Below, piece by piece: positions 7,078 through 48,746 of a DNA stretch of 64,000 nucleotides. Under the pieces are notes generated by a model that worked only from the letters and a program-made list of their open reading frames with translations, had not been told where the DNA came from and ran no database searches. Location: NCBI GenBank assembly GCA_947561715.1, contig OX387197.1, positions 10,723,001 through 10,787,000 of the forward strand, in the 5' to 3' direction. The first letter of the stretch is position 1. The number at the start of each line of letters is the position of its first letter. The position numbers and the translations under genes were made by a program. Origin of the DNA: Ascidia mentula. Lineage: Eukaryota > Chordata > Ascidiacea > Phlebobranchia > Ascidiidae.

Positions 7078-7685
7078 AGTTATGTTCCTGCGCGTTTTCC
7101 CCTTATATCAAGAACCTCAACGTTGTGTATTTATTGGTAACTTTCATAAGTTATATCATCTGCCCTTACAGTTGACTTTCCATTTTAGCTGCATTTTGCA
7201 TTTTTCGCATGTGTATGTTTCTGTTGCTATTGCACTTTTGAGGTGGTTGTGATAACGGAACCGGAGATAAGCGGATTTATTTCGTTTCCCATCACGTGAT
7301 ATCACAGACGTTAACATTAAATTAATCTGATTATTACAATTCAAATATCCGTTTCTGTTTTATCCTAACTTGTGGGATATTTTGAGTCGTATGATCATAA
7401 TCGGATTTGGAATAAGTAAAGTTCCCGGTGGCAGATATATAAGCAGCGGCCAAGCGACAAGAAGTCATCAGTTGCTGACCAACAATCAGCAGAGCAGTCG
7501 TTAACTGAACAGCGAACAGTATTATAGTTACAATAGGCGAAGTTGAATGACCAGCGGTAGAGTATTGTTAAGATTTTTTTAAATAAATCGTTATGTATAT
7601 GTGGAGACTGCAATGCAGAAGAGTTGTCGGTTCGAAATATACATGGAATTCATTTTACTTTTTCAGGTTAAAACCGCATAATATC
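7078..7685 (+). promoter_or_regulatory. promoter and 5' UTR of tyrosinase-related gene copy 1
   Basis: A block from about 7272 to 7560 is almost identical to the region ahead of the second TYRP gene (about 12815-13090). It contains a palindromic E-box TCACGTGA at 7292-7299, the form preferred by MITF/TFE bHLH-ZIP factors. A TATA box TATATAA lies at 7436-7442, 144 bp further on. The leader seems to contain an intron: a donor GTAGAG near 7555 and an acceptor TTTTTCAG at about 7659-7666, just ahead of the ATG at 7686. MITF control of melanogenic genes is established in chordates; its action here is inferred from the site. Confidence 0.7.
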
Positions 7686-10544
7686 ATGGCTTACTCTATC
7701 TTTGTGATCGTTTGTGCCCTTGCGGCATTATACTGCAACTCCGTAAATGCACAATTTCCTCGCATTTGCGCCACTTTTGAGGCAATTGTGGCGCACGAAT
7801 GTTGTCCGCTAGTGGGCGACACTGGGTCACAGTGCGGGGAAGCGGAAGGACGTGGATCTTGTCAGAATATCGCAATTGACGAACTTCCACATGGAAACCA
7901 ATACGTTCTGGTTGGAATTGATGATCGTGAAAGGTGGCCAGAACGTTTCTTCAACAGGTCAGTAAATATTAAAGTGTATTTTTAGGTTGTTGGAATACGT
8001 ATTTCGTAGGTTAAGAACACGTTTTGACAAATAAATATGTATTATGAGAAAAACAATCAATTTACGATATTCAATAGTACAAAATCCAGATGTGTGTTAA
8101 TAAAAAATACGTATCGATTCCAGATCGTGTGTGTGCAACTCTAACTATGGTGGTTTCGACTGCTCGGGATGCAAATACGGATGGCAGGGCGATGATTGCC
8201 AGCAAAGGAAACCTGCCACAGTGCGAAGGAACATACTTAACATGACTGAAGACGAACGAACAACATTTCTTGACATTTTAGACCAATCCAAAACCGCCAT
8301 CCATCCCGACTACGTCATCGCCCAGGACCACTACAGGTTGCATTTATGTGGTCCAGTCAAACTTTTTGCAACATGTTATATTACATTTGCGTACAAACAA
8401 ATACCTCAAATTTGCAATTTATGCATGTAAATGTCAAAAAAACTTCAACCTAAACGGAAAGATATAAATTTAAATACGAATACTTTGAAAAAAGACTGAC
8501 GTAGAGAGTAAAGACAACATATCGGATCATTAACATCTAGCGATAAATATTCTTTCCGCAGAAACCTCATTCCGGAAAACAGCACCGAGCCAAACTTCAT
8601 CAATGTTTCCATCTACGATCTGTTCGTGTGGGTTCATTATTACTCGGTGCGTGACACTCTCCTCGGTCCTGGACAAGCTTACACTGCAATAGATTTCTCC
8701 CATGAGGGTCCAGCTTTTCTTACTTGGCACCGCATGCATTTGCTCGGTTTGGAAGCAGATCTCCAACGTCTCTCCGGTGACCCGACATTCGCTTTGCCTT
8801 ATTGGGATTTCGCCGTTGGAGGTTTGTTCAATGTGGCTTTGTAACCACAAATAAGTCAACCTGAAACCCCTGCATAAATGAATTCGGGCGTTATTTCCTC
8901 TAATGTCATATATATTTTTTCTAAAATCAATTTAAAACATAAAAGAACGAACATTTTGTGGCCTTATTCCAATGAATATCTGCAGGCAGAAAGTATTTTG
9001 TTTATGTAATTGTGTATCCAAGGTGAAGGCCTTGTCAAAATTACTAAACAAAGTAACATGTTCAATAAGTAAATTCCCACGCCCAACATTAATTATTCAC
9101 GTTAGGTACTGAGTGCGATATCTGCACCGACGATATGTTGGGAGGTCGCGATCCCGCCGATCCAACTCGTCTTGGTCCCAATTCCCGATTTGCCGACTGG
9201 GATGTAATTTGTCTCAGTCTCGATTGGTTCAACGACAACATCAAGCTGTGCAACGGAACTGCCGAAGGTAAACAAGACAATTTTTCCCTATAGCTACATC
9301 AAAGTAATATTTTATGCTTTGTTCGTATTACAATTCAAAAAATGAACGAGCCACGAATTAAGAATAACATTTTGCACATTTCATTTTTTTTTACTTTTAT
9401 CCAGGAACCATTCGCCGAAACCCTGGTGGTAACACTGACCGACCCGCCGTCCAATCCCTTCCGAACCCTGAAGACGTGGCGGAATGTGTGGAGGTTGACA
9501 CATACGACACCCTCCCCTTTTTCTCCAACTCAGCTGGAAGCTTCAGAAACGCACTTGAGGGTAAAATTTACCTTTGTTCATGTAAGTGATTTTAATGACG
9601 CGCCATTTTCATTACATCACAGGTTACTCCGAACCGGACGGAGAGTTTGAAATTGGTGTGCGAACTTTACACAACTTGGCTCACTTGTTCTTGAACGGCA
9701 CCGGGGGACAAACGCACGCTTCGGCAAACGATCCGATATTTGTTCTCTTGCACACTTACACCGACGCCATTTTTGAGGAATGGTTGAAGAGGTGGAGGCC
9801 AAAGTTATTTGCCAAGTTTAATTATAGGAAAAAATTGTGTACAATTTGCAAGACGATCAGACATAATTTGATATTTCCTGTCCATTAAAGCGAAACATTG
9901 TACAGTTTTGATGCAACAAGATTTTTGTTTTCAAGATCGAATGCCACTACCGCCGATTACCCAACTGAAGATGCACCGATTGGACACAACCTTGACTTCA
10001 ACATGGTTCCATTCTTCCCTCCAATCACAAACCGGGAAATGTTTGTCGCCTCCGATCAACTGGGATATAATTACGCCGTGGACTTTGCAGGTGACAAAAA
10101 AAACATGCGTAGTTTTTGGCAAATCGGTAAGAATAGTAAAAAGGCAAATGCGAAAGGAGGTTTTTGACTGCTATTTCGATCCTAAACTTCTACACAAGGT
10201 CTGTGCTTTAATTAAACAAATTGTGGCATATTTGTGTTATTGGTAACAACGAACGTCATTTTCTATTTTTACAATAACTATAAAACTGTAACAGCACAGT
10301 AATTGTAATCCTAACACACTAATGTTTTCATTTGATTGTTGTAATTGTAGAAGTGAGCGCTTTGGAGTCGGAACCTTCTTTCATCTGGGCGATAGTTGGC
10401 GTTTCGGCATTTGTCGTCCTGGCAGCGTTGGTTGTTGTGTTGATCAGCTCACTTAAACGGTACCGACAGAAGAAGAAGGAAGACAGTCTGTACCAAAGCA
10501 TCATCGAAGACGACGCCCACAAAGGCGTTAAATACACAGCTTAA
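7686..10544 (+). CDS. TYRP: tyrosinase-related protein (TYRP1/2-like), copy 1
   Basis: Eight exons: 7686-7957, 8124-8336, 8562-8821, 9106-9267, 9405-9560, 9623-9791, 9936-10090 and 10351-10544, all phase-consistent, giving about 526 residues. Order: signal peptide (~1-22), Cys-rich N-terminus with an EGF-like segment (~92-117), tyrosinase domain, membrane helix (~473-497), short tail. All copper ligands are visible. CuA His are near 187, 209 and 218 ([21 protein letters not shown]). CuB His are near 371, 375 and 398 ([17 protein letters not shown]). The CuB region matches vertebrate TYRP1 better than tyrosinase. The tail has a YQSI-type sorting signal, which fits melanosome or lysosome-related organelle targeting. 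The stop is followed at once by AATAAA (10545-10550). The probable role is oxidation or tautomerisation of melanin intermediates in pigment cells, inferred from family. Confidence 0.93.
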
Positions 10545-11543
10545 AATAAATATCGTTTGCTTCAAGGAATTAGATAATATTCGTCCAGTGAAATATTGTT
10601 TGTTGTTGGCGTATTGGTGACTACATTTCGCACATTACACAAACTCAAATGTATGCCTATGAAATTATTGCTTTTGGGGAGGACTAGATTCTGATATATT
10701 CAAAGCAAGAACGTTTTAGAACGCAGAACATTCCGTTTCCTATTCGGCGTCAAATAGCAAGGTCTGTAATGAAAAATTTCCACCATACTCCGGCAGATGT
10801 CAATGTGAACGTGGCAGCCATTGTATAACTTGATGAAAGTTCCTGCCCAACAACAGAGCGTCGGTCTGATTCGTTTGAAAACAATTGCTTTTCATATTAT
10901 TTGTTGTGTTTTCAATTTTATTTGCACAAACTCTTTGACAAATATTATAAACGTCCTGTGGAATGGAAAAAATATTGTACCTAATTACTTTTTACACCTA
11001 ATATTTGTACGATCCTTCGTCATGCTTGGAATCTTTGTCTTATGTGGTTTTCATGGTGTCCCAAAATCGGTGTTCACATTTTGTCAACTATTCACGTGAC
11101 ATAAAACAGGTCAATTACTCAGGTTCAAAGCAGGGCTCATATGGTCTATTATGAGCACTTGTTAATTGTTAGCAAAGTCAGTAGGGGTTGATTAAGTCAT
11201 TAGAGGACCTGCAGTCTAAACACTCGAGATTTTGATGTGTGCATTATGCAAAATATAAAGATTCAACCACACACAATTTAGTGTTAATTTTTGTGTATTT
11301 TCACTACAATTAATAAAGTATCACCCAAACAGCACATGAATGATGAATCTTCGGTAATGCTCTACCAGAATGCTCTTACGTAGGCCTGTGTGCTATTTTG
11401 CTTGATAAATAATCCATTCCTGATACCAGTTGGTCGTGGTTTTTCACGTTGGATCATCAAAAAATAAACTTTTCGAAATATATCATACATTGATAAAAAT
11501 ATGTGTTGATTAAAAGTTCTTGATCACACTATATTACACAGTT

Positions 11544-12814: not shown

Positions 12815-13204
12815 ATGATTTATTCCGTTTCCCATCACGTGATATCACAGGCGTTAACATTAAATTAATCTGATTATAACCATTCAAATATCCGTTTCTG
12901 TTTTATCCTAACTTGTGGGATATTTTGAGTCGTATGATCATAATCGGATTTGGAATAAGTAAAGTTCCCGGTGGCAGATATATAAGCAGCAGCCAAGCGA
13001 CAAGAAGTCATCAGTTGCTGCCCAGCAATCGTTAACTGAACAGCGAGCAGTATTATTGTTAGAATAGGCAAAGTTGAATGACCAGCGGTAGAGTATTGTC
13101 AGGGTTTCGGGGTGCCTCTATGGAGACCGCAATGCAGAAGTGTTGTCGGTTCGAAATCTACATGAAATCCATTTTACTTTTTCAGGTTAAAACCGCATAA
13201 TATC
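12815..13204 (+). promoter_or_regulatory. promoter and 5' UTR of tyrosinase-related gene copy 2
   Basis: Near-identical to the copy 1 promoter: TCACGTGA at 12835-12842 and TATATAA at 12979-12985, the same 144 bp apart. The sequence between them is almost unchanged, whereas the DNA just upstream has diverged. A leader intron appears to end at TTTTTCAG just before GTTAAAACCGC, with the ATG at 13205. Confidence 0.7.
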
Positions 13205-16147
13205 ATGGCTTACTCTATGTTTGTGATGGTTTGTGCCTTCGTGGCATTATACTGCAACTCCGTAAAAGCACAATTTCCCCGCACTTGCGCCACTTTTGAG
13301 GCAATTGTGGCTCACGAATGTTGTCCACTAGTGGGCGACACTGGGTCACAGTGTGGGGAAGCGGAAGGACGCGGATCTTGTCAGAATATCGCAATTGACG
13401 AACTTCCACATGGAAACCAATACGTTCTTGTTGGAATTGATGATCGTGAAAGGTGGCCAGAACGTTTTTTCAACCGGTCAGTAAATATTAAAGTATATTT
13501 TACAGGTTGTTAGAATGTGTTTAATTGCCGTATTTGTGTGAACGTTTATAAATGCTCTGTTTATCCTCGACCACTTAATAGAGAAAAATTTTAAACACGC
13601 AACGCGGAGCCGCATGTTAGCATTAGTATGCTCCAAATACGTCACTCAATGATATGAACAAATGATTATAGTATAACATTGGTATAAAACAATATGTATC
13701 AATTCCAGGTCGTGTGTGTGCAACTCTAACTATGGTGGTTTCGACTGCTCGGGATGCAAATACGGATGGCAGGGCGATGATTGCCAGCAAAGGAAACCTG
13801 CCATAGTGCGAAGGAACATACTTAACATGACTGAAGACGAACGAACAACATTTCTTGACATTTTAGACCAATCCAAAACCGCCATTCATCCCGACTACGT
13901 CATTGCCCAGGATCATTACAGGTGATAAAGAAATACTCGAGTAGATTTTGTTTTATGCGCGAAGTCAGTACTTCGCGTTCCTGGGAATTCGTCGCTCGGC
14001 GAATTTCAAGGGTCGCAGAGAGTGTACCAACTTCTCATAGGTAAACATTTTACTGTATACTTATTTCTCAAATTGCACCTCCAGACACGTGTGCTGGGTC
14101 AGTAAATTCATATCCATGTGGTTTTCAGTAGTTATTGTAAAATGTCTATTGTGTTTTTATCTAAAACTGTTCAATACGAAGAGTCGCGTCAAATCTTAAA
14201 TAACTTAAGTTGGTGGAGAAAGTTGGAAACGTCTTCCGTTAAAACTGTGAACTTTGGCGCCACAAATGTGTACAAAGCTACTTAAGATATATTTTCCGTC
14301 GATATCTATGGACATATAACTAGACAACTGAATATGAAACGTCACTTCCGCAGAAACCTTATTCCGGAAAACAGCACCGAGCCAAACTTCATCAATGTTT
14401 CGATCTACGATCTGTTCGTGTGGGTTCATTATTACTCGGTGCGTGACACTCTCCTCGGTCCTGGACAAGCTTACACTGCGATAGATTTCTCCCATGAGGG
14501 TCCAGCTTTTCTTACTTGGCACCGAATGCATTTACTCGGTTTGGAAGCAGATCTCCAACGTCTCTCCGGTGACCCGACATTCGCTTTGCCTTATTGGGAT
14601 TTCGCCGTTGGAGGTTTGTTCACTGTGGTTTTGTAACCACTAATAAGTCAAATTGAAACCTTTAGGTAGATAATTTTGAGCTAAATAACAAGTTCAAAAA
14701 GTGAAATCCCACGATTAATATTAACTTTCATATTTTAGGTACTGAGTGCGATATCTGCACCGACGATATGTTGGGAGGTCGCGATCCCGCCGAATCAACT
14801 CGCCTTGGTCCCAATTCTCGATTTGCCGACTGGGATGTAATTTGTCTTAGTCTGGATTGGTTCAACGACAACATCAAGCTGTGCAACGGAACTGCCGAAG
14901 GTAAGCAATATAAAATTTCCTATAGTTACATCTAAGTCATATTCTGTGTTTCGTTCGTATTACAATATGAGCTGCGAATTAACAACAACATTTTGCCATC
15001 TAATTTCACTTTTATCCAGGATCCATCCGCCGAAATCCTGGTGGTAACACTGACCGACCCGCCGTCCAATCCCTTCCCAACCCTGAAGACGTGGCAGAAT
15101 GTGTGGAGGTTGACACATACGACACCCTCCCCTTCTTCTCCAACTCAGCTGGAAGCTTCAGAAACGCACTTGAAGGTACAACTTACCTTTGTTCATGTGA
15201 GTGATTTCACTGACGCCCCACCTTCATTACATCGCAGGTTACTCCGAACCGGACGGAGAGTTTGAAATTGGTGTGCGAACTTTACACAACTTGGCTCACT
15301 TGTTCTTGAACGGCACCGGGGGACAAACGCACGCTTCGGCAAACGATCCGATCTTTGTTCTCTTGCACACTTACACCGACGCCATTTTTGAGGAATGGTT
15401 GAAGAGGTGGAGGCCAAAGTTATTTGCAAAGTTTAATTATAGGAAAAAATTGTGTACAATTTGCAAGACGATCAGACGTAAATTGATTTTGCCTGACCGT
15501 TAAAGCGAAACATTGGACAGTTTTGATGCAACAAGATTTTTGTTTTCAAGATCGAATGCCACTACCGCCGATTACCCAACTGAAGATGCACCGATTGGAC
15601 ACAACCTTGACTTCAACATGGTTCCATTCTTCCCTCCAGTCACAAACCGGGAAATGTTTGTCGCCTCCGATCAACTGGGATATAATTACGCCGTGGACTT
15701 TGCAGGTGACAAAAAACATTCGTAGTTTTACGCAAATCGGTAAGAATAGTAAAACGGCTACAAATGATTAAGTACAAAATTGACTGAAGAGATCAGAATT
15801 TCTACTGTGCTTTAGCCTACAAATTTTGTTGAGATAATTGTGTCATTGGCAACAACAAACATCCATTTCCATTTTTACAATAACCAAACTGTAACAGCAC
15901 ATTAATTATAATCGTAACACACTAAAATTTTCGTTGGATTGTTGTAAATGTAGACGCAAGTGCTTTGGAGTCGGAACCTTCTTTCATCTGGGCGATAGTT
16001 GGCGTTTCGGCATTTGTCGTCCTGGCAGCGCTGGTTGTTGTGTTGGTCAGCTCACTTAAACGATACCGACAGAAGAAGAAGGAAGACAGTCTGTACCAAA
16101 GCATCATCGAAGACGACGCCCACAAAGGCGTTAAATACACAGCTTAA
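13205..16147 (+). CDS. TYRP: tyrosinase-related protein (TYRP1/2-like), copy 2
   Basis: Eight exons with the same sizes as copy 1: 13205-13476, 13709-13921, 14354-14613, 14739-14900, 15020-15175, 15238-15406, 15551-15705 and 15954-16147. They give about 526 residues. The signal peptide, EGF-like segment, all CuA and CuB histidines, membrane helix and YQSI tail signal are kept. Amino-acid changes are few, for example SVKA for SVNA at the signal-peptide end and DASALE for EVSALE before the membrane helix. Exons are far more alike than introns; intron 2 is 432 bp here against 225 bp in copy 1. AATAAA follows the stop directly (16148-16153). Both copies look functional, so they may share a role or differ in expression. 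Confidence 0.93.
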
Positions 16148-17874
16148 AATAAATATCGTTTGCTTCAAGGAACTACATAATATTCGTTTAGTGATTCATT
16201 GTATCGATGTACGTTTCATATAATACACAAACAGAAAAGATTCCGTACTTTCTGTTGATGGAAAATTGTCAGTATAGCAATGATACATGGTACGCTTTGG
16301 GGATTCCTATTTGTTATCACGAGTTGGTCTGCATTGAAACGTTTCCCATCACGGGTAGACATCAGTGTAAACGGTAGTCATGGATTAACTCGATGACAGC
16401 TCGCAATAATAACAGAGCGGCGGTGAAAGAATTTTTGTGTGCTGGAAAGCGAATCCCTTTGTCTTCCTTAATCCGATCTCCCTTGCAATATCAACACAGG
16501 ATTACAGTTGGGTGCCTCAGAGGATTTGGCACATAAACAGGCTCATGTAGCCAAGAAGCGAGACTTGTAATTAATGTTTCTATTTCTAAGATTGAGCGGC
16601 AGTTCGTATACAAGTAAACGTGCCTAATATGTCGTATTCGTTAAAATTGGTTGAGATATACTTTAACTAATAATGTGTTTTGTTAGTTTTTTATTTGCAA
16701 AGATCCGTGTATTTCATAAATGCTCTGCTCTAAAAATTTAAATATTCTACCTTATTCAATTTATACACTAAAAAATAGCTTGGCGTGCCTAAAATGCTTC
16801 CCGAAAAAGGATGTGGTTTCTTTTTGTCTTTCTGACATTTTGTGTATAATTTTTACGCCTTTTTAGCTTATTTCTACAAAGTATTAAGTTTCATCATGCA
16901 TCATCAACTTTTTCGTGTTTTCTACTTAAGATAAAAGTTAGTGAAATGATTTTACTTTTACCTAAAATCACAGGCCGGTTGCGATATTTTTTAATGATAG
17001 AATTTGACCCTTGAGAAGTTGTTCTCTGCGTAAATAGTTGACGACATCATTTTACATAAACAAACCCTATTTGCAGTGCCGTGTTACTACCGTTATGATG
17101 CCCGCATTCGCCAAAGTTGGTTCAGGTGTGATTGCTTCTGATGTGACAGATATCGCGATACAGTGATGGTAAAGGAATGCGTTTGTGGGCTTCCAATTAT
17201 CCAAATTACATCGATTATACCCAATAATTATTAGGCGTGGTGTATTCGGTGTATGATCGTCTTCCTAACCGCCAAAAATTAAAGCCGGATATCCAATAAA
17301 TCCGATGCTGAGAAGCTGCCTTCCCATCTTATCAATATGCGCGGGAGACAAAAGCGTCCGACGAATAATGGGAGGGAATTACAATGCGGAGGGCGGGCGG
17401 ATTGTTACCGGGGAACACTCGCCGCGTGGTTGGGTGTCATCTAACGCGCGGACCCGACTATTTTGAAACAATAAGAATAGTGAGACAATGCGCACAGCGA
17501 CACGGGTCGATTGCTCTGCAATAGCGGCAGAAAACTCTCCGTTCCTGGCATAAGCGAACCTCGAATAATTTTCCACAGTCCCGTTGGGAGTTTGATTATT
17601 TTTTGAGCTCTAGTGACCGGCGGGGTCGCCTGCAGGTCCCGGGAAGGTTTTATACTAAATGTTATTGATATGATTCGTCAGCGACGCTTTTGTGTTTCAG
17701 ATTAGGCGCAGGGCTGTTCATGCGAAACTCAATGTCATAGGTTGTCCTCTGGCTCTTCGCTCACAGTGTGTGTTTTGCCGGCAATGCTTTCGTGTTGATA
17801 GGTCAGGTGCTTGACAGTCGACGACCAAATCGAACCCGGGCTACTGTCTGAAATCGTTTTTGTGTTCTACTAAA
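16148..17874. other. intergenic region ahead of the CIMIP2 gene
   Basis: No gene is supported. A GC-richer segment at about 17340-17660 with several CG dinucleotides and GCGG runs lies a few hundred bases ahead of the CIMIP2 start. It may contain its promoter. No TATA box or clear motif was recognised. Confidence 0.4.
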
Positions 17875-20596
17875 ATGCCGGCCTTACTGCCTGAAAACAC
17901 GTCGCCGGATTTGAGAAGCAGCAGTCTCGCCCCAAAAGAACCTTACCACGTTCCTGGGTAAGTTTTCCATTGAAGGGAAATTGATAAAAATATAACAAAT
18001 TTAGAAATTGTTAGCAATTATGCTGTTGTATTGGCCTTGATTATGTTGGAAATAGTTGTCACCTTTTGACTTCCCATTTACACAGTGTATTCCTAATTCG
18101 TACTGAAACTAACCCTTTCAAATATGTTAATTTTATATAGCGTTTCCAAAGTCCGTTGGTAGTTTGTATAATTTATGTTAATATGTTATTTTGCACGTTT
18201 AAACCATAGCGGCACTGACACACATAGTACATAACTGTGTTAAATGAAAAAAAAACAGTAAACCATAAACTTACGTTTTGCAGATTTTTGTGATGTATGT
18301 GATTCACTCTACTGATTAGTGAAATGTTTTTAAAACATTTAACTAGGTGGGCTGTTGTGTAGGCGTAACTACACAACGCAACACAATAGGATCAATAGGT
18401 GCATCGGCTTTGTCAATCTATAGGCTTTGTTGCCATTACACAACTACCACTGTTTCTGTGGCGTTTAAATAATGTCGCGTCTTTGTTCGGTACTGGCCTG
18501 GTGATGGGCACCAAAACCTTGTGTATTTTGAAAATACACCATGGTAAAGCCGCAGAACTCGGTGTCGCATATTTACGTAGAACGAACAAAACAGAAAACC
18601 GTACTGCAAAACAGAAAACTGTACTACATATTGAATAATACATATTGAACAATCGTTCTTCATTTAGTGTGTGTAAAACTGTAAATTGAGTGGTTTGTTA
18701 TGTTGATATCTTGTTTTGGAGGGCTCCCAAAACTTTTTGCTCTCGACACTTTTTATTTGATTAAAATTTTTCGCGACCCCTCGTGTTCGGCAGATAATGT
18801 AAAGATATTTTATTTAAAAAAAAAAAAATTCCAAAACTCGGTAACAAACAAAAACGCATTAGTTTTATTAACCTTTTCATTTGTACTGGCCCAGTGTACG
18901 TGTTTGGTTTCGTTGTTTGCATCCTATGATTTGTCACATTATGTTTCTATATCTCACGATTTGCATTGCTTTCAGATACGCGGGACACAAATCCCAGTTT
19001 AAATACCAATGCAGCGAAACATTCGGTAACTGCACTCACCGGTTGTTGCTATCTCCTGAAGTGAACCAATCTACAAACACCGTACTCCGACCAATTGATC
19101 CTCCACCCAGATCAAAAACTGTCCCACTTGGCTTTCATGATGTCCCTAGAGTTAGTGCTTAAGTTTTATTAACTATTTACACACAAAAACTCAATTGCAC
19201 CGGTACAAAGCGTAGCGTATAGTCTCTTAACAACAGTAACGGTATACATTGTCAGCAATACCTGTCGGCAACATAAAAATGGGACTTTTCTAAAAGTACA
19301 TGTATACTCTCATAAGATATTAATTTTGATTAAAACTTGGTAAAGTCCATAATCAAATCATTGTGACAGTTGAGCGCAGAAGACTATGCCATCACGGACA
19401 TACTGGCTAAGCGTCGGGAGAGAATAGGCGACCAACTCTTCAAACCAAACATGAGATCAGGATACATGGGTATTGTACAAAAATTGAAAACGTTCTGTTA
19501 TTGCAGCTTACATTATGACGTCACAAATACATTTTTGTTCTTCATCAGGGTTCGTACCTAAAGCACACTTTTCCAGCTACCACTCAAAATGCTTTCCGGA
19601 AATTTGCAACGACGCCCTTCATGACTTCAGCTGCGACCAGACGAGACACCAAACCAGGCTTCAGCAACTGAGCAAAGCATTGCGATTCCAACAGGGAGAT
19701 GGCGCTTTAACCAGCTCTGAAAGACAGGCATGACTTCTCCATAAAAATAAAAAATACCGAAATTTTCAAATTTCTGAAAACCTGATGTGTTTTTTACTAT
19801 TAAAAAAGATTACCACTCATATGTGTAAAGTTGCAAAATAACGGTAAGAGCGGTGCTGTGTCTCGTATAGAAATGGATTGTTAAAGGGGAGTTGCGTGTG
19901 AACAAAAATGTTTGTTTTATTTTTTTTTATTTTTCTTGTGTTTTATTATTTTGTAGCTGGTTGCGACGAGACATTCTCTACCACTAAGATCTGTTCGGAA
20001 CGACTTCCCGCAGTTTGTGTCAAAAAATGCTTACCAGCGACACGAATCACCATACTTTTTAGCGGATGAGCATCCAATGAAAAGCTTTAAGTCAGGTCGG
20101 CTTTAATACTTTTATAAATGACGTGTACACATTACATCAAAAGTTTCTGTATTCAATAAACAACCTTTTGTTGTTCGTTGACAGGATTCGCGGGCCATGT
20201 TCCGTTCTACAAAGATCTCGGTGGCCACGGTTTTCCTATTGTGACAAATCAAGCATTGAAGGAGTTCACGCAAGAACGTGAACGCCACATGGGGTCAGTA
20301 GACAAGCCGCTGCAAAACGAAATGTTGATCCAACCAAGGCCCCCAAAGAAAACACCCACATTTTCAAGTCCACAAAGAAATCGGATTTATCTGATTGATG
20401 CTGGAAATATTCCCCGATATGCGGGATATGTGCCAGGTAAAAACACAGTTTTTAAGCTCTTCAAATTGTGTTTGATTTAAATGGTTTAAATTTTTCAGGG
20501 CAAAAATTCAGATTTGGGCACACATTTGCTGAGGGAACGAAAAACCCCATGAAAATGAAATCTAGCGAAGCACCGGCAGTTTTGGCAACTTCATAA
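17875..20596 (+). CDS. CIMIP2: CIMIP2 (FAM166)-family ciliary microtubule inner protein
   Basis: Seven exons: 17875-17957, 18976-19150, 19370-19469, 19549-19727, 19957-20095, 20185-20436 and 20499-20596, all in phase, giving about 341 residues. The protein carries four copies of the family signature GYxGxxP followed by a small aromatic/Gly box: EPYHVPGYAGH...FKYQCSETFG near the start, SGYMGFVPKAHF and GFAGHVPFYKD inside, and PRYAGYVPGQKFRFGHTF at the end. FAM166/CIMIP2 proteins bind the lumen of axonemal doublet microtubules, so a role in motile cilia or sperm flagella is expected. The intron after exon 4 has a GC donor (CAG|GCATGA). A second, slightly changed terminal exon lies at 22289-22386. 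AATAAA occurs at 21147. Confidence 0.88.
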
Positions 20597-21700
20597 TTTT
20601 CTTTTGTTGTTGTTTTCTTTTCAGTCAAACCGGCGTAGACTTTAGTTTTGTGTGTAAATCACAGTAACCTCGAATTAGACATGTTAGCTTATTATCTACA
20701 AATTCGACGCAAGATGGTGTCCTCGGTCAAAGATCATGTAATATTTGAAATTGGTTGAATTTGGAAAAATATACTACGAGACTGCTTGAAACTTTCTTAT
20801 CCGAGTGAAACTTTCTAATCCATTTACGCTTTTATATTATCGAATTATGTGTCTAAAGCTTCGAGCATATGTAGTAGTTAAGCATTGTAATGAACACTTG
20901 AGTGATCAAAACCAGATGTAAGTCTATATAGCTTGGTTAATTACATTTCGAGGCAAAAATCTTACATCGTGCTGTTAACACTGCTGTATATTTATCGGAT
21001 TCAGATTGGGAATAACTGCATGTGTGCGTTTGTTCTATTCGTATCGTGACCTCAAAAATCATGTGTTTGAAGTAATAGCATGTTTGGTTAGAATACTCAA
21101 CACTTGTAGTTGCTATTTGCACTGTGCTAACACTGTGTTTGGGAACAATAAAGAGACAACAAGTTCGCGCGTCGACCTTTTAATGAAGATGATACACAAA
21201 CGTATATAAGTGCGTTAAAATGGGATCAATCTGTTTGCTGCATTATAGTTGAAGCTTTTGGAAGAAAAGCCTTTACATCAGATTAAATGTACACATCAGT
21301 CATTTTCTTAATTGATCAAAACAAACGTTTTCGCTCAAACCCTCTTTAGTACCTTCTTCGATTCAATGGTCAGAAGGTTGAGCTGCATAAACATGTGTGA
21401 CAAAAAGTCAGGTTTCACTGTTTTCGTTGGCGATGTAAGCTAAACATATTGCTGGCTCGTTGCACGGTGTATGTTGACGTTGTGTACAATAAAAAACAGG
21501 TAGAATTCATTGAAGGATCACGTGTCGAACAAAAAAAAAGCGATCGTACAATCAATGTGTGGAGAATAAACGTCGTCCGAGATATATGGAGGGCGAAGGT
21601 AAAAAAATAAACACGTTTCGCGTGCAAATGATCTAAAATCTTGTTTAAATCACAAATCGTCTACAGGGAAGATAATTGCAAGAAGAATGGAGATAAATAT

Positions 21701-21888
21701 TCAGACAGGTTTGTAAAAAATCTGTCCGCGACTCAAACGCCTACGGAGCTCTCGCCAAAGCATGGATCGTTCCACAGCGGAACCGCTCAGCACCGACCTG
21801 TTCTCTTGCGCCCTCCGGTGGAGGTAGGGAAGCACCTCGTCGACTGGACCAAACGGAACATACTTGTACACATGATAGCCGGCTTGTC
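21701..21888 (-). CDS. PRODH: distal duplicate terminal exon of PRODH
   Basis: It has the same 188 bases as the proximal PRODH last exon at 23491-23678; I see no difference between them. The acceptor TTTTTTAG and the stop codon are preserved. It encodes the C-terminal part of the barrel, beginning [20 protein letters not shown] and ending FYKPV. It could be used as an alternative last exon, with the transcript running 1.8 kb further and crossing the duplicated CIMIP2 exon, or it may be silent. Confidence 0.75.
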
Positions 21889-21968
21889 CTAAAAAACATT
21901 CGCGACGTCAATATAGAACCGGGGTGAATTACAGGGCCGGTATGTTTTTTTTGTCGTATATATTAATA

Positions 21969-22052
21969 CAGTGACTCCCCCAACCTTTTCGTGGTTGCGT
22001 ACCACTTGGAGGTAAAACAATTTCGACGCGTACCACCGGTTGGGGAACACTG
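21969..22052. mobile_element. short hAT-type MITE (84 bp)
   Basis: Its ends are inverted: CAGTGACTCCCCCAACC on the left and GGTTGGGGAACACTG on the right. The flanks TATTAATA and TGTTAATT could be a decayed 8-bp target duplication. It has no coding capacity. The same element is present at the matching place in the second duplicate (23761-24291), so it predates the duplication. Confidence 0.75.
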
Positions 22053-22288
22053 TGTTAATTTAAACGTTTAGCAAGGCGTTCATATTACAGGTGATTACAA
22101 CGTGCATTTAGGCAAAAATTTACGGATTGATATTGTAACTACACCACTGATAACATTTACTGTAACTTCGTTAATGATAACATTTAAAGAGTGAGAAGAA
22201 ATGAAGGCGAGCTTTTAACACTTAACTGTAAAGCATAGTTTCCAAGTTTTGCAAATTGTGTTTGTTTTAAATGGTTTAAATTTTTCAG

Positions 22289-22386
22289 GGCAAAAATTCA
22301 GATTTGGGCACACATTTGCTGAGGGAACGGAAAACCCCATGAAAATGAAATCTAGCAAAGCACCGGCAGTTTTGGCAACTTCATAA
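22289..22386 (+). CDS. CIMIP2: distal duplicate terminal exon of CIMIP2
   Basis: This 98-bp exon copy keeps the acceptor TTTTTCAG, the phase and the stop codon. It differs from the proximal copy at two bases, both changing charge: K to E in the AEGTKNPM segment and E to K in KSSEAP. It could give an alternative C-terminus if splicing skips the proximal exon. It could also be unused. Confidence 0.65.
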
Positions 22387-23490
22387 TTTTCTTTTGTTGT
22401 TGTTTTCTTTTCAGTCAAACCGGCGTAGACTTTAGTTTTGTGTGTAAATCACAGTAACCTCGAATTAGACATGTTAGCTATTATCTACAAATTCGACGCT
22501 AGAGGGTGTCGTTGGTCAAAGATCATGTAATATTTGAAAATTGGTTGAATTTGGAAAAATATACTACGAGACTGCTTGAAACTTTCTAATCCGGGTAAAA
22601 CTTTCTAATCCATTTACGCTTTTATATTATCGAATTATGTGTTTAAAGCTTCGAGCATATGTAGTAGTTAAGCATTGTAATGAACACTTGAGTGATCGAA
22701 AACAGGTGTAAGCCTATATGGCTCGGTTAATTACATTTCGAGGCAAAAACCTTACATCGTGCTGTTAACACTGCTGTATATTTATCGGATTCAGATTGGG
22801 AATAACTGCATGTGTGTGTTTGTTCTATTCGTATCGTGACCTCAAAAATCATGTGTTTGAAGTAATAGCATGTTTGGTTAGAATACTCCACACTTGTAGT
22901 TGCTATTTGCACTGTGCTAACACTGTGTTTGGGAACAATAAAGAGACAACAAGTTCGCGCGACGACCTTTTAATGAAGATGATACACAAACGTATATAAG
23001 TGCGTTAAAATGGGATCAATCTGTTTGCTGCATTATAGTTGAAGTTTTTGAAAGAAAAGCCTTTACATCAGATTAAATGTACACATCAGTCATTTTCTTA
23101 ATTGATCAAAACAAACGTTTTCGCTCAAACACTCTTCAGTACATTCTTCAATTCAATGGTCAGAAGTTTAAGCTGCATAAACATGTGTAACAAAAAGTCA
23201 GGTTTCACTGTTTTCGTTCGCGATGTAAGCTAAACATATTGCTGGCTCGTTGCACGGTGTATGTTGACGTTGTGTAAGATAAAAACAGGCAAAATTCATT
23301 GAAGGATCACGTGTCGAACAAAAAAAAAGCGATGGTACAATCAATGTGTGTAGAATAAACGTCGTTGGAGATAAATGGAGGGCGAAGGTAAAAAAATAAA
23401 CACGTTTCACGTGCAAATGATCTAAAATCTTGTTTAAATCACAAATCGTCTACAGGGAAGATAATTTACAAGAAGAATGGAGATAAATAT

Positions 23491-26400
23491 TCAGACAGGT
23501 TTGTAAAAAATCTGTCCGCGACTCAAACGCCTACGGAGCTCTCGCCAAAGCATGGATCGTTCCACAGCGGAACCGCTCAGCACCGACCTGTTCTCTTGCG
23601 CCCTCCGGTGGAGGTAGGGAAGCACCTCGTCGACTGGACCAAACGGAACATACTTGTACACATGATAGCCGGCTTGTCCTAAAAAACATTCGCGACGTCA
23701 ATATAGAACCGGGGTGAATTACAGGGCCGGTATGTTTTTTTTGTCGTATATATGTCAATACAGTGACTCCCAACTAGTGATGTGTTGCGCCGAATCCGGG
23801 TACCCGAACCCGGCCGGATATTGACCAATTTTCATTACCCGGACCCGGCCGGATAATACACTTAATTTTACCGGATAGTTGGGAAAGCATTTTTGTCCTA
23901 AAAGCGGACAAACATTTCGCAAATTACTCGTTTTTGGGACCCGGTCTGTGATACTCACCGGCTTCCGATTTTTCGGATGTTTGTTCTTAAGTTTTTTTGT
24001 GACGTGTTATACCATATTAATAAATGCCCACGTTTATTTGTTCCACTCATGACAGGCTAACCTTAACATAGCATTCTGTTTGGCAATCAAACATTTTTGC
24101 CATAATACACGAATCGGTGTTAACAAACTGCCGGATCCAAATTATCCGGCAGGATTTGATTAATAACTATCCGGATCCGGCCGGGCCGGATAATTTGGAA
24201 CTGGGAACATCATTACTCCCAACCTTTTCGTGGTTGCGTACCACTTGGAGGTAAAACAATTTCGACGCGTACCACCGGTTGGGGAACACTGTGTTAATTG
24301 AAACGTTTAGCAAGGCGTTCATATTACAGGTGATTACAACGTGCATTTAGGCAAAAATTTACGGATTGATATTGTAACTACACCACTGATAACATTTAAA
24401 GAGTGAGAAGAAATGAAGGCGAGCTTTTAACACTTAACTGTAAAGCAATAATCAATATTTGTGTTGATAAGCAGTCAGTAATTAGTACTTGCTTGTGTTA
24501 AAGTCCGCACTTATAAATCGATAAAACTGCACTCAACGTCAATTAATGCTCGGCGAAGTGCTGTTCGGACGAAAGGTTATTGGTAATTTATTGGTTGCTG
24601 ATGGTGAGAGTACAAAGTGTACATTTGTTTATACATAGTTGGTGTGCAGTTTATATATTGATAATACAAGCTTCTAACAACCAATATATACATCAGCACA
24701 GCTTCGCGTCGGGTTCAACATGTTTACATCAGCAGTGGCCTGACTCATAAAAACATTAACACGATATGCCCACATTTGTATTCACACAATGAACTCACCA
24801 AGTGGAAAAGTAATGTGGTCGCACATTCCCAATAGCTGGCCAAAATATACCCGGTGTTGCATTTCAGGTGTAAACTCGAGGTCGTGGATTCTACGAGAAA
24901 CAATTGAGTGAGATTTGATTTCAAGTTGAATTGCCGTGTTGCACTGCATACTTTTGAAGAGCGTGTTTCACGCTGTTTTCATTGTGTGACGCAAACATGA
25001 CGTCGGCATTTCCGCCTTCTTTGATGTGCTGTAACAGGATCTCCTGCAGTCTGTGGTAATTTCTGTGGAACAAAAACTGCGTAAGCAACGAGGCTATTTT
25101 CAAATTGTAAGCCAGTAAGTTGTGGTAAAGTTTCACAGAATTAAAATGGACAATCATTGCACGAAAATCCAACAAATTTTATCAATAGCCAGTGGAGTCT
25201 TTGTGTCACCACTTGATGTTGGATTAAAACACATTGTGTACTGACGCGTTTGTGGCGTCGTAGTTTGGTTGTATTGGGTCTTCGTAATCGAGTTGCGCTG
25301 CTCTTTCCCTCTCGTGCTCCATGTAAGCTCCGCGAACCAGCTTCAATCCGAAATGAAAACCTTCGCGTTGCGACAGGGCAAGGTCCTTGCACAAGTTATC
25401 TTCGGCGGACTGTAAGAAAAGTCATCAAAAAAATTACACATTAGGTTTCAACAGTCCGGGATAAAAAACAAATCTTTTGTGGAACCCTAAGAAGGTCGTG
25501 TCGTGATAGCGATCATTGGTTGATGACGAATATATCGAATCGAAAAGACGTTACATTAGATTTAGGTTCCTTTTTCGACTAGTTTATAATCACCGTTCTC
25601 CAAAAGATTTGATAAGCTTATCCCCTCACTGAAACGCACCCTAAGAGTTTACAAGCAAAGACGCTCCACTAAAATAAAAGTTTTTCATATGCCCAGCCAA
25701 TGTATACCTGGCGACTGTGAGAATGCTTAGAAAATCAGCCCACCTTTAAATAACATTGGTACGTGTTCATTATAACCGTCTTCTTTTTGTTAAACTTTCT
25801 CATCATTTCCATGGTGATGCGACTGATCGCGGGCTGGAAGTAGGTTTGTTCGGCGTCGATCATCAGTCTGACGTTCTTCTTCAGTGCCCTCTGAGCCAGA
25901 GCATCAACGCGGTTAAGCATCCTCTTCATTTGCGCCTCTTCCTCATCGGTAAATTTGGGAAGCAGTGACTCCGCGTCGCCCGTCTGTCAACAACACAGTT
26001 TGTTCATTATCCTAATTATTAGTGGCTAAGAAAGTTACATTGCTGTTGCATAGGAGAAGAAAAAAAATCAATAATTCAAATCCAGATTGTTTGTAACACA
26101 AAACATCCGTGTGAATATAATCAGGAAATCACGCTTGGTTTCGATTCAGTTTTGCGGAAATGTTTGGTCAAACTCTGCTGTCGCTACAGCATTAGGAATT
26201 TTAGGCTTTTGTGAATCTAGTGTACCACGAATCTAACGAGCGAACCAGCAAAAACGTGGGTTACGTGCATACTTGCAACGTTGAAAGTGGTAATGTTAAC
26301 GCTCTTAGTCATAAATTTGCTGTTCAAAAGTGACGAACTTAACGTTTAGGTCATGTGTCGGGTAGTAAATTTTACATACAAGCTGCGTTTATTACTTTAA

Positions 26401-41578: not shown

Positions 41579-44500
41579 ATGTTGAGGGCGCCTTCTACTG
41601 CGCTTTTAACTTGTCTGTGGCTATGTTTGTGTATTCTTGTTTGGGAAATTGAATCGCGATGGACTCCCCCAGTAGAGCAATGTCCCAAAGTTAATGGCTG
41701 CAGGTGAAATACTATTTATTATATTGGTGATTGTAATCTTATTTTTGCACTCGATTTATTATATCTACTACTGTACGTGTCCACAACTGGTAAATAGTTG
41801 GGTTTGTGTTACACACAGAGCGTCCTTAAGACGGAGATGAGCTTTTAGTAGGTGTGCTTTTACTCTTTACTCTTTATTAAAAAGTTATATTTGTTTTGAA
41901 AAGTTTTTTTGTTTAAGCAGCTGTCACTTCATTTCAAAAAATCAATCAGTTGTTGGATTTCAAGCAACCTGCAGAGGCGACAACCCAGATTTTTTGAGAT
42001 TGTCGTTAGAAAATGTAACTTTACTGAAACTTAACAGTAAGTTTGAAATGTGTGTCGACATTACGGAGGGTGTATTAAGATAAGTCATACTCTATATTTC
42101 GGCAATCAATTGGTTTGTAAATGGCAGGCGCACTTCGTTTGACAATGTCTTAGAAAATATTTCCTTATTGTTGACCACGAATTTATGTTGGTCAACAACA
42201 ATGTTAAATTAGGCTTCTTTCCATCTTTTACCGACACAGAGTCAATCATAAAAAAGTGCTCACACAATTCTTGCTTTGTTAATATTTGGCACTGAAATAG
42301 AATACAACTATGTTGTTGAAAGAATACAACTATTTTGTTCTACACCCCTGTGGGAAATAATAAACATATGTAATATTCATGGCTACAAAAAAATGCCATA
42401 ATTCAATAAGTTTTTTTTTCGCACAGATTGCAAGTTTTCAAATGAGACCATATTATGGAATCTCCAACGAGCGGACTTATCGGGAGAGTTTAGTTTTCGT
42501 AACACACCTGTTTCGGCTTTTAACTGGAACTGGCTTCCAGGTATGATCATGTCAAGAAAATCCTTGACGGGTTGTAACTATGGGTTTTATTGCTCTTTAT
42601 ACCGGATAAATGGAATTTGCTATTTCTGATGAAATAAGTGCGGGTCGTTTCACACACAACAGCTTTTGAAAGCCTTCTCTGGCGAGTAGTGAAACACAAC
42701 GAAAACTGCGAAATTGAAGGGTCCAAAAAGACGACAAACATATTTATAATATATATATCAATACTGTTATTATATATCCAACATTTAGTCAAACGCAATA
42801 TTTTTGGGGGACCAATTAATTTTACGCAGCGCGTAAAGACTGGCCTTCATTATGTGGAATATATGCAAAGAATGTAAGCAGCATGTGAGCCGCATATCTC
42901 CAAAAGAAAATTCGAGGTGACGATTATATGCTGGCGAGATTGAGAAGAAAGATAAATAAAAAAGCTTCACCTTTCGTTCTCAGAACCGAAAGCATTGAAA
43001 TTTCGGAAAAACGTACATGCAAATCCTTGCGCAACCAAAGTGTTGTTTTTTATTTTGAATTTGTCGACCTCTTGCGTGAGATTGCTAACAATACGTGGTA
43101 TCATTTTGTTGTTTCAGACACGACGACGAAAGTTTTACTTGGTTACTTCCCGCAAGGCTTAACCCTCGTTAGTGAACAACACAACAAAACTGAAACAAAC
43201 CTAAACAGCACATGCGCATTCAGAAGCACGTACAACGTCAGCAAAGTCTTCCTATATTCAATAAATTACACAGATATACCGAAATGCCTGCCACCCAAGA
43301 CTACTTCCTTGTCCTTGGTCGATGTTCCTTTAACGGATTTTACCATCACAAGCAACAAGAACCACGAACGTACGATGAAAGTATGGCCCCCTTCACTTCG
43401 GGTGGTTTATATAAAACGTGCCGCAATGACAAGCATCGGTCAACACGCTTTTCAAGGAATGCCATCCACTTTAAAAAAGATAGTTTTGGGATCGTGCAAA
43501 AACCCATTGGGACGTATGCCCAGTCACTGGCCCGCCAGCATTACATGGCTGTGGGTAATGAACTGTGGCGTTGACTTGATTACATCAGAAGATATACAAG
43601 GTTTAAAGCAACTGGAGAAAATAAACATTGGCGGAAACATGTTGGTATTTTTGCCGGACATTTTTCCTGTATCGGTGAATCAGATTTATGCAACGATAAA
43701 CAGAATAACACAAGTTCGCAACGTCCAATGGCGACTGCTCACCAACCTCAGATCAATCGACTTGTCCGACAACAAACTGACATCTGTGCCACTGGATTTG
43801 CCAAAGTCGTTAAACAACTTAATCTTAAGGAAAAATCTGATTGATTACTGCGACAGGAACGCACTTATCCACATGACCAAACTTAAATCGGTTGATCTGT
43901 CATTCAACAAGTTAGTACGGAGTGCAACAAAGTAGTTAAACCACGATTGTGAACCAATTTGTGTAGATGTGCGTACGACATTATGACGCAACACATGACT
44001 TAACTTTCGCGTGGGTTATATACAGTTGATATCTTAAAGTGTTTGTTAAACCACAAGAAAAACACATATAGTTTGGTGCCTTGTGTTCACAAATTACTCC
44101 AAACCCTGCAGTTGGTATCAAATCATAAAGGGGTTTATTACGAAGGTTTAACAAGGTCTCTATTACTTTCAACAGACTGTTCAACATGCCGGAAAACCTG
44201 CCTACAACTATCATCTACTACAATCTAAGGAGCAACAGCATTGGTCTTGTACGAACGCCTACCAGTTATGAGTTTTGCGCGAACTGTATTTACGTGGATC
44301 TCTCTGACAACCCATGGGTTTGCGATGGAAAAATGATAGACATGATAATATGGTTGGGAAAGCAAAACATCGAAACGCTGAAGTTCCACGGACAATGTGC
44401 ATCCGCAGCAAGCTGTAAGTCAATTGACGACTGTTCACACTTCATCAAAACGAATTTACTTTTCAACCAACGAGATGTTCGCTAAACTGGTTTTAAATTC

Positions 44501-47500
44501 ATCGCAAGCGTTCTTTTTTTTGAAAAGTGAAGAAATTTGCATTTTGTTGCAGCAACAAAATTAAAATTTTATGCGAGTTTTTAAAACAAAAAATATAACT
44601 GATGTGAAAACATTTTCTCGTAGGTTATTGTTAAATGCTGCATTTCAACTTGTGAAGTTGATTATTTATCGCTTACTTCCCTCTGACGTCAAGCACTTGT
44701 GGACGCATTGTCATGTTTTGCGTCACAACAAACTTCCTGACATGAACATGCTAAATTGCAGACCCAAAATGTCTGTTATATTTTTTGAAAGGCGACGAGT
44801 TTTTGACCTATTAATAGATTGTGTCGCATTAAACACAACTAATTGGCATTGCGAAAAGAAACAGAGTGTGTAAAAAATGTTTCAAACTTTTAAACATACC
44901 TTATTTTAACCAAGTCTAGATTAGTTATAACTTAAAAATATATTAACGGACATGTTACACTGCTGTTGCAAATAACATTCCTGGATAAAACGTTTCTTCA
45001 AAGTAATTCTGCACCAAGGGTTAGGCGTTTTGTAGGTTCGTGTTCAATGCACTTCGTGATTCGTGTGACCTCGCAATAACGGATGCTAGGTAACTCGGGT
45101 ATTGACATCATCTACTCCATCATGTTTGTTATTACAATTTTCAAGCGCGTCCGAAACAAACAGAATCAGAATCTTGTTTTTTTCCAGCACTGAGTAACGA
45201 CGAACTCGACGAATTCTTGGGTTATCTACAGTATCTACGCAAAGAAGTTGGAAAGTGTTTTTACGACGTTAGAACATTAGCTTGCAACTCCACATCTATA
45301 ACAACATTTCCTAAAAATCCGCCGCAAGGTCTGAAGACGTTGGAAATAAGCGGCAATCCCTTGCTTACAATCATACCACCTGACTTGTACAAAAGCCAGA
45401 AGAGCTTGGGAGTGTAAGTTTTTGCTCAGTAAAAATTGCTCAGTAGATTTTGCTGCCCAACAGTTACTAGTCCTACAGCCCTTGTAACTCCTTCTTCTAC
45501 GACACCTCTTGCAAGCTTCGGAAGCTTTTATTTAATATTCGCTTGTTTCCTGTTAAGAATGTTCTTGGAATCAAACAACTTGACAAACTTTCCTCGCGGA
45601 ATTCCTTCGTCCGTACGCATCCTCCGACTTTCTCACAACAAAATTACCGGATTGACCGACGGGGACCAGGATACACTGAACAGCTTGGTTAACTTAAGAA
45701 CCCTTACGTTGGTGAACAACCGCATCACCACCATTTATGACTATCAACTCGCTCCACTAATTTCTTTGCAAAACTTCCTGATGACGGGTAATCCCCTGGT
45801 GAGAAAACTTTTTGAATTTCTGTTATAAAAGTTGTTTTTTTTGTGCAAAGGGTTTTTATAATTTCCTGTTCTCTTTTGCAGCACTGTGACTGCTCCCTGC
45901 AGTCTCTGACTGTATGGTTTTCACGGAAATACACAAAGATCCACAACCAGATCCAATACATACCGCAATGTGCCTCGCCACCAGACCGCAAAGGTCAACT
46001 TATCAATCAACTTAGAGGAGCGTTTGAGTAAGTATCTAAAATAATAAAACGCACGTGTAAAAACAGTTAGAATTTAAATTTGTGCTCCGATAAATTGATT
46101 TGTTTGCTCCGATAAGCGTCGACGGTGCTGAATATACGATCACAACAAGCTTGAAACTTGCTTTTGACAGTTTTGTTTGTTTCTCATCGCAGATACGAGT
46201 ACAATTGCGCACCGTCAACTTGCAACTGGAAAATAGGTGAAGGGATTCTCAACTGTTCCAGGAGTTTCCAGGAGGTTCATTGCGTACACTTTGACCAATT
46301 TGTTGAGAAAAAAATCATACTTTTATCGGTAGAGTGTCATCAACTTGGACAACGTGACTTTCACAACCGGAGTGATGCCGGTTATCCCAGCTAACAGTTA
46401 TTGGAGATCACTCGATCTTTGCGAGTTGCTGCTTACGAGCGAACAAGTTGTCACCAAACATTTGTCGCGCCTGGAAACCTTAAACTTGACAGGTGGTTGA
46501 TCTTGGAAAAATAAATTGACTGTTTGTCTTAGTCTTGGAGAAATTTGTTTAAAATGAAACACTCGACATGTCACAAACTCAAGTTTTTGTTTTGCAGGAA
46601 ATTTGGTCACTTTCATTCCTGTCAGTAATTTGTCGTCCAGTCTAATACGTTTGATTCTGATTGGAAACAAAGTGTCGCATCTGCCTAGATATGAAGATGT
46701 CACCGAATTGTTACCAGTGCTGGAGCTTCTTGATTTGCGTCACAATCAAATCACGTATGTCATTTTTACACGGTTTTCTTCACTTTGACTTCGATGTAGG
46801 CCTACTTTAAACTAGTTTCACCCACCAAATCCGAATTTTCGGACAAATCAATTATTTTTTGAACCAAAACTGTCATGTGTACTAATTGATCGCCAACGTG
46901 GCCCACTTGACAACTATTTAGTTTCTGATCCTCAAGTAACAAAATTAAGTTTAGAATTGTACATTTGTTTCTTTGAAGATCTATCGATCAGAACGAAGTG
47001 AAGTTGTTTCCGTTAATAAACAACATCCTTTTGCACGGAAATCCTATTTTGTGCGATTGCAAAATGCGCCCCCTAGTGACTTGGATACAAACAACCAAAG
47101 ACAACCAGCTTGGTACGAAGGTGCATCACTTTGAGGTAATCAATGATTTTACGAGTCAACTTTCCATCCACCACGTCCTTCACCTTGTTATCTCATAGAA
47201 TCTTAGTTGTTCTGCCCCACCTCAGTTGACCGGTAAGTATTTGCATCAGTTGCGAGAAGAGGAATATTGCAAGACAGTGCTCAACGTGGCTCTCATCAGT
47301 GGTTTGATAGCCGGAATTGTCGTGGTCGTTTTGGCTGCCGTGATCAGCAACTTTGTTTTGCACAGTGTATGTATTACTTATTTTGAAAAGTTTTGTCGTA
47401 CATTTGAAACCTCCAGAACAATATATATTATATTCCTGGAACTCCGAAAGGAGTAAAAGACGATCAGCGCCAGTATAAGATCTATATTTATTAACAAAAT

Positions 47501-48746
47501 ATTAATTTCGCCTATTGGGGTTTTCAAATAAAATCAATGTAATATATAAATTGATTCGCAAGGACAGATCCGTCGGTCACCGACTTGCACATCAGGCTAA
47601 TTCCTGTAGTCACTTTTGAAATTTTCTCTACTCCTGAACAAAATTAATTATTTGACCCGCTTTGGTCACTTCTTAACAGCGTCGAAAGAAACAAGAAAGG
47701 AAAGACGTGGTACAGGGCTTTAGAGATCTTCTGGAACGCGAGGCACTTGTGGCCCACGACCCGGAGACAGGTATATGCGAACAGGAATACGAATACGACG
47801 CATTTGTATCATACTGCGGTGGTGGGAACGACGAGGATTTTGTGTTTGACTTAATAGAGGTAAGAAAATCACAAATCAAATTAACCCTGGAAAAAACCCA
47901 CGTGGGCGATTCGTTTTGGAAAAAGTGCAACAGTAGTATATCACCTCACATACATTTGCAGATACCTTCCTAAAATAATTATAAAAAACAAAAACTCACA
48001 CGGAATCGAGTGACGCTTATCATTAACTTTGAGTTCACAATTTTGTGTCACAATATTTTCTATTCTGGAGAAAGTGAAATAATATAAATAAAACTTCTGA
48101 CAACCTGATACTACATTGGAATAAACATAACAACAGAACGTTTTGTGAAACTCTTTGTTCTGAATGTTTTTCGCAGGAATTAGAAGAAAACCAGGGTCGT
48201 TCTCTCTGTGTTCACGAGCGGGATTTTGTGCCAGGACGCGGGATCGCCGATAATATCGTTCAATGTATTGTTGCCTCGCGTAAAGTGATTCTCGTAGTAT
48301 CGAGGAAATACGCATCGAGTAGCTGGTGTCAGTATGAAGTGCAAGTAGCCCTGGCCCAACTTCACGAGAACAGACGCGGAAGGCTTCTGGTTCCTGTGTT
48401 GTTGGAGGTAATTGCGTTTTTGTGGATTATTGGATTCACTTGTTCTGGCCATATAGTACTATTCTTGCTGCCACTTGTTCTGGTCAGTTTTCGACAAGCT
48501 TTCAAAAAATCTGCACATTAATCAGTACAGGTATGAAAACTTAAAACTTTCTCCAAAATTTATCAAAAACCTGAACCAAACAAATGGCTGTACCATTGAC
48601 CGCAGGATGTCACTAGAGACGAAGCGTACGCTGGAAGTGTGAAGACGATATTATCGGCTATTACGGGAATCCACGTCCCAGTAAACGAAGATTCGGCACG
48701 AGCATGGAGAGAGTTCTGGGAGAAGTTAATCGCAGCTTTGAAGTGA
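41579..48746 (+). CDS. TLR: Toll-like receptor (LRR ectodomain, membrane helix, TIR)
   Basis: Sixteen exons: 41579-41703, 41921-42036, 42427-42540, 43118-43910, 44176-44414, 45188-45413, 45558-45798, 45882-46027, 46193-46274, 46333-46492, 46598-46754, 46979-47135, 47199-47366, 47680-47859, 48177-48407 and 48606-48746, giving about 1091 residues. A signal peptide precedes leucine-rich repeats in three blocks. The first LRRCT has NPWVCDGKMID, the second HCDCSLQSLTVWF joined to an LRRNT-like CAPSTCNW...LNCS, the third NPILCDCKMRPLVTW. A helix at about 879-906 leads to a TIR domain (about 945-1091). The TIR has box 1 YDAFVSYC, box 2 RDFVPGRGI and box 3 WREFWEKL. The receptor would sense microbial ligands and signal through TIR adaptors. 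Exon 4's left edge is less certain than the others. Confidence 0.92.
47427..47655. repeat. interspersed repeat, copy in a TLR intron
   Basis: Lies in the intron 47367-47679 just before the TIR-coding exons. It shares TATTCCTGGAACTCCGAAAG and the CCGACGGATCTG-type block, here inverted, with the WSCD intron repeat at about 39100-39290. It has no coding capacity. Confidence 0.6.

Follow-up and report, generated by a model that had tools for sequence, protein, structure and literature searches.

Two neighbouring genes that converge, CIMIP2 on the + strand and PRODH on the - strand, have their facing last exons inside a tandemly copied unit of about 1.79 kb in Ascidia mentula (contig OX387197.1; positions are those of the window, the whole 64-kb stretch of DNA analysed). 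One event gave each of the two genes a spare last exon and broke neither, because a full proximal last exon with its own poly(A) hexamer is retained in each. Most likely, this unusual layout reflects a fairly young, real-looking tandem duplication that is probably without function, and a regulatory reading of the locus is weaker than first stated. We consider it probable that the duplication is a harmless passenger, the near last exons being used and the inner pair being redundant and mostly silent.

In the order of events that we infer, the ends of a germline tandem duplication of about 1.79 kb fell in the final introns of the two genes, that of CIMIP2 on the left and that of PRODH on the right. 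CIMIP2 would splice to its exon a and end near 21165, PRODH would splice to its exon b and end near 22955, and the inner pair, formed by PRODH-a and CIMIP2-b, would be redundant and largely silent. Copies A and B may be two alleles joined via unequal exchange, or may have diverged after the duplication, and the right third of the unit would owe its similarity either to homogenisation by gene conversion or to recent shared ancestry. If the far exons are unused, a young passenger duplication of this kind calls for caution with gene models, as predictors may choose either copy. If they are used, the locus would provide a natural test of competition between near and far terminal exons whose splice and poly(A) signals are equal, in two opposed genes together.

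Structure of the duplicated unit and its two genes

Self-alignment places copy A at 20464-22234 and copy B, which bears a 447-bp insertion, at 22254-24446 (both unstranded), and the repeat, aligned in one block of 1544 bp (96.4%) and another of 181 bp (99.4%), is far beyond chance. The copies differ at 44 of 1742 aligned positions (2.5%), a count that excludes 24 bases at the left edge (20440-20463) that are apparently related and more diverged. Seven gaps interrupt their alignment, the two long ones being the insertion in B and a stretch of 27 bp missing from B. When the genome was searched with the unit (40 of 639 candidates scored), at least 45 matches were obtained; three were the window's own and the remaining ones, at least 42, were confined to query positions 1515-1619, a small dispersed repeat, no further copy of the unit being found elsewhere.

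The + strand gene is CIMIP2B/FAM166B-like. Its first six exons lie at 17875-17957, 18976-19150, 19370-19469, 19549-19727, 19957-20095 and 20185-20436, and the donor at 20436 faces two acceptors, at 20499 and 22289, each opening a 98-bp coding last exon with a stop: exon a, proximal (20499-20596, +), and exon b, distal (22289-22386, +). The resulting seven-exon model encodes 341 residues with intact phase and no internal stop, whichever last exon is used. Intron 4 has an apparent GC donor at 19727, placed from phase. The assignment made at first pass holds: the protein matches PF10629 (CMI2B-like) in two stretches (E 3.5e-18, 66 bits against a cut-off of 21.6), and a PDB search returned 11 matches, eight of them at E ≤4.3e-10 (best 2.4e-44), six of these bearing the name FAM166B or CIMIP2B and the other two FAM166A. 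The three weakest matches (E 0.24, 0.69 and 0.86), one named FAM166C and two unrelated chance matches, were set aside. Three of the 11 genome matches are weaker ones, on contigs C71 and C2, at 33-39% identity.

On the - strand, the last five exons of PRODH were modelled, giving 264 C-terminal residues. The four exons before the last lie at 25983-25744, 25409-25246, 25062-24952 and 24890-24799 (-), and the donor at 24799 can be joined to acceptors at 23678 or 21888, that is, to the proximal last exon b (23491-23678, -) or the distal last exon a (21701-21888, -), both of 188 bp and both leaving the model without internal stops. PF01619 is matched by this C-terminal part over profile positions 65-274 of 278 (E 5.1e-65, 220.2 bits against a cut-off of 27), in agreement with the earlier naming of the gene, and weaker matches at 34-46% identity occur on contig C72 (three of the nine genome matches).

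Along the window, the order is therefore CIMIP2-a, PRODH-a, CIMIP2-b, PRODH-b. In both genes the homologous terminal exons are adjacent and of compatible phase, as in tandem exon duplication. The first-pass annotation had described a tandem duplication across both 3′ ends, with this order and these splice coordinates, and a proximal and a distal terminal exon for each gene; spliced models and alignment confirm it, all four exons having an intact acceptor, phase and stop.

The two CIMIP2 last exons differ at 2 of 98 bases (20540 and 20567 in exon a), and the two substitutions, which in b put E for K and K for E relative to a, both change charge, as had been claimed. At the first changed residue, the four PDB FAM166B alignments that cover it (a fifth ends before this site, and the second site lies outside them all) have R, H, Q and H, with E in none of the four; CIMIP2-b has E and CIMIP2-a has K. 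This weakly suggests that the distal CIMIP2-b may be the derived exon at that residue.

Use of the terminal exons

The splice acceptors and main poly(A) signals are equivalent in the two copies. The PRODH acceptor is identical over the 75 bases upstream of the exon, the CIMIP2 acceptor shows a single difference, at -24, in 35 aligned upstream bases, and both copies retain the main pair of opposed poly(A) hexamers: AATAAA (+) at 21147-21152 and ATTAAA (-) at 21184-21179 (TTTAAT on the + strand) in copy A, and AATAAA (+) at 22937-22942 and ATTAAA (-) at 22974-22969 in copy B, as found by a hexamer scan that makes their use a prediction. Since acceptors and main hexamers are equivalent, and since transcription reaches the near exons before the far ones and then runs into an intact hexamer behind each, the proximal exons should win; we infer proximal use and silence of the inner pair on these grounds. 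No sequence feature that we saw favours the distal exons.

The strongest competing explanation is that the exon pairs work as alternative last exons in one or both genes, the CIMIP2 forms differing in C-terminal charge and the PRODH forms being the same protein. We regard this as possible and rather unlikely. It draws on the fact that four exons have remained intact with matching phase, and that both differences between the CIMIP2 exons alter charge. Nevertheless, open frames are expected even without constraint. When neutral substitutions were simulated at 1.75%, half the left-side divergence of the unit, the exon remained open in 92% (CIMIP2) and 83% (PRODH) of the runs, and at 3.5% in 85% and 69% respectively, in a simulation with substitutions only and with stops as the sole damage counted. 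Because neutral copies mostly stay open, intact far exons say little about use, and we set aside intactness as a sign of it. Moreover, a selection test would need more than the two CIMIP2 changes, the alternative PRODH forms are identical in protein, and neither the acceptors nor the main hexamers show a difference that would give the distal exons an advantage.

Two published systems also speak for alternative use. In the oyster gene CvAOX, exon 10 is duplicated into copies of 63.5% likeness; expression of both forms is reported, and one mRNA form retains both exons consecutively (PMC5589949). Given that both oyster copies are expressed, silence of the far exons in Ascidia should not simply be assumed. 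The likeness lies in the tandem copying of a coding terminal exon together with some of its 3′-UTR, a stop being present in each copy; unlike in the oyster, where a single gene is concerned, two convergent genes here share one unit and the copies are 98-100% alike. In Drosophila pip, eight clusters of tandem terminal exons are reported to be used in a mutually exclusive manner, and duplicated terminal exons seem to be associated with such a choice (PMC9013439). As in pip, the terminal exons of a gene are tandemly repeated in our case, though in two copies instead of eight clusters, and they alternate with the terminal exons of the gene on the other strand. Among the titles and abstract openings of the literature searched, we found no interleaved terminal-exon duplication of two convergent genes on point, which is no proof of absence.

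Genuine duplication or assembly artefact

Could two alleles of a single unit have been placed end to end by the assembly? The duplication is read from assembled sequence, and its divergence, 2.5% overall and 3.5% in the left part, falls inside the range of within-individual differences given for three tunicates, 1.2-4.5%, in a source that also gives 4-5% for a sea urchin and 4.0% for amphioxus (PMC3424144). An insertion confined to one copy is often seen between alleles, and the assembly holds no other copy of the unit among the 40 of 639 candidates scored. Against an artefact, there is no N anywhere in the 64-kb window and the assembly is contiguous (195.8 Mb in 79 contigs, the present one of 27.9 Mb). 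An array of 4 kb would fit well inside one long read, were long reads used, and the unit ends have, by eye, just a few junction bases in common, leaving no overlap for an assembler to join. Taken with these points, an artefact seems distinctly unlikely. A genuine duplication would be unsurprising, because other local duplicates diverged by a few to ten percent are present, namely the tyrosinase-like pair of the window (blocks at 90-97%) and a 3.45-kb pair on contig C73 (95.7%).

Predicted transcript geometry

Convergent gene pairs with abutting 3′ ends form a general class, and the locus resembles it in that the opposed poly(A) hexamers are separated by 26 bp in each unit; it departs from it in that the entire junction occurs twice and the proximal ends lie one unit apart. 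Use of both near exons would indeed leave the predicted transcript ends about one unit apart. Should only one gene use its far exon, and should the hexamers be used, a tail-to-tail contact, presumably the state before the duplication, would be found shifted by one unit, with an overlap of at most tens of bases. The earlier statement that distal use by either gene would produce overlapping antisense transcripts is thus not sustained: with the predicted hexamers, only joint far use would give a long overlap, of about 1.8 kb between the pre-mRNAs (from ~21160 to ~22960). Even then, there would be no overlap of the terminal exons: CIMIP2-b would run from 22289 to ~22960, PRODH-a would run from 21888 to ~21160, and each would lie within an intron of the other gene. 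Additional + strand hexamers in copy A (AATAAA at 21488, 21565 and 21606; ATTAAA at 21282), some of them present in B, could extend the CIMIP2 end and alter this geometry.

The same layout can be read as a reciprocal switch, in which each gene chooses between near and far exons and the joint far choice makes the pre-mRNAs overlap by about 1.8 kb, each carrying the terminal exon of the other antisense in its own intron, so that one 3′-end choice would control the other gene. We regard such a switch as very improbable.

Divergence along the unit

Differences between A and B are not evenly spread. A change point at 21679 separates 42 differences in 1213 aligned positions on the left (3.5%) from 2 in 529 on the right, and a step as strong was reached in 1 of 2000 permutations. 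Within the low-divergence tract (copy A side, 21679-22234, unstranded) lie the PRODH exon, the dispersed repeat and 319 aligned bases of intron, in which 2 differences occur. Its longest identical run (21679-21963, 285 bp) was reached in 92 of 5000 permutations and is only moderately rare by itself, the step being stronger evidence than the length of the run.

PRODH-a and PRODH-b differ at none of 188 bases, so that mature PRODH copies are distinguishable solely by their 3′-UTR below 21679. The first-pass annotation had noted this identity and had contrasted it with diverged surroundings; the identity stands and the contrast applies on the left only, the intron and repeat on the right being about as alike as the exon. 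The PRODH exon is not singled out by its identity: it belongs to a wider tract, low divergence extending over the intron and the dispersed repeat and taking in the entire right third of the unit. A homogenised tract, arising by gene conversion, or a tract of mosaic allelic ancestry, which applies if A and B stem from two haplotypes and is here indistinguishable from gene conversion, would account for the PRODH identity better than selection on the exon. That selection on a used distal PRODH exon preserved its identity is scarcely credible: the absence of differences has a probability of 0.0013 at the left-side rate, but the identity continues 75 bp into the intron and the PRODH synonymous sites are likewise unchanged.

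An element inserted in copy B

In the proximal PRODH intron, copy B contains an inserted element of 441 bp (23775-24215, unstranded) flanked on both sides by the 8-bp target duplication CTCCCAAC. Target duplications of 8 bp were found in 7 of 7 element copies examined, L032 being omitted because its flanks are common to L031. The ends of the element are inverted, TAGTGATGT and ACATCA(C/T)TA, and from target length and ends we take it to be hAT-like. At least 40 further copies occur elsewhere in the genome, the nearest at about 95% among the matches listed (40 of 345 candidates scored). L031 and L032, about 20 kb apart on contig C73, share both the element and its flanking sequence as parts of a local duplication, 95.7% alike over 3.45 kb.

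The element copy in B has private differences at 14 of its 441 positions, of which nine lie within 56 bp and are perhaps not independent, and six other copies, chosen as near the query, have 0 to 5. If these private differences are clock-like, the insertion would predate the close resemblance of A to B on the right, and the element should once have been present in copy A as well. At the counterpart of the insertion site in copy A (21969-21989, unstranded), two extra C are present that none of the 5 dispersed-repeat copies fetched for comparison shows. They are a possible excision footprint; slippage in the C run is also conceivable.

Other features of the window

No structured RNA at gathering level and, by ARAGORN, no tRNA was detected in the 64 kb. 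A tyrosinase-like gene is present in two tandem copies (7274-10591 and 12817-16194), 5.5-5.8 kb apart and matching in four blocks at 90-97%; the Pfam tyrosinase test covered one exon of the second copy. Reading frames with leucine-rich repeats extend over 42889-48521, LRR_8 being matched for 42889-43935 and the others being recognised by eye, and the frame at 48078-48521 that follows them has, by eye, a TIR-like domain, so that the frames possibly represent putative Toll-like receptors. Finally, a 66-bp minisatellite of 4.4 copies (61150-61437) lies within a threonine/serine-rich open frame (60881-61777).
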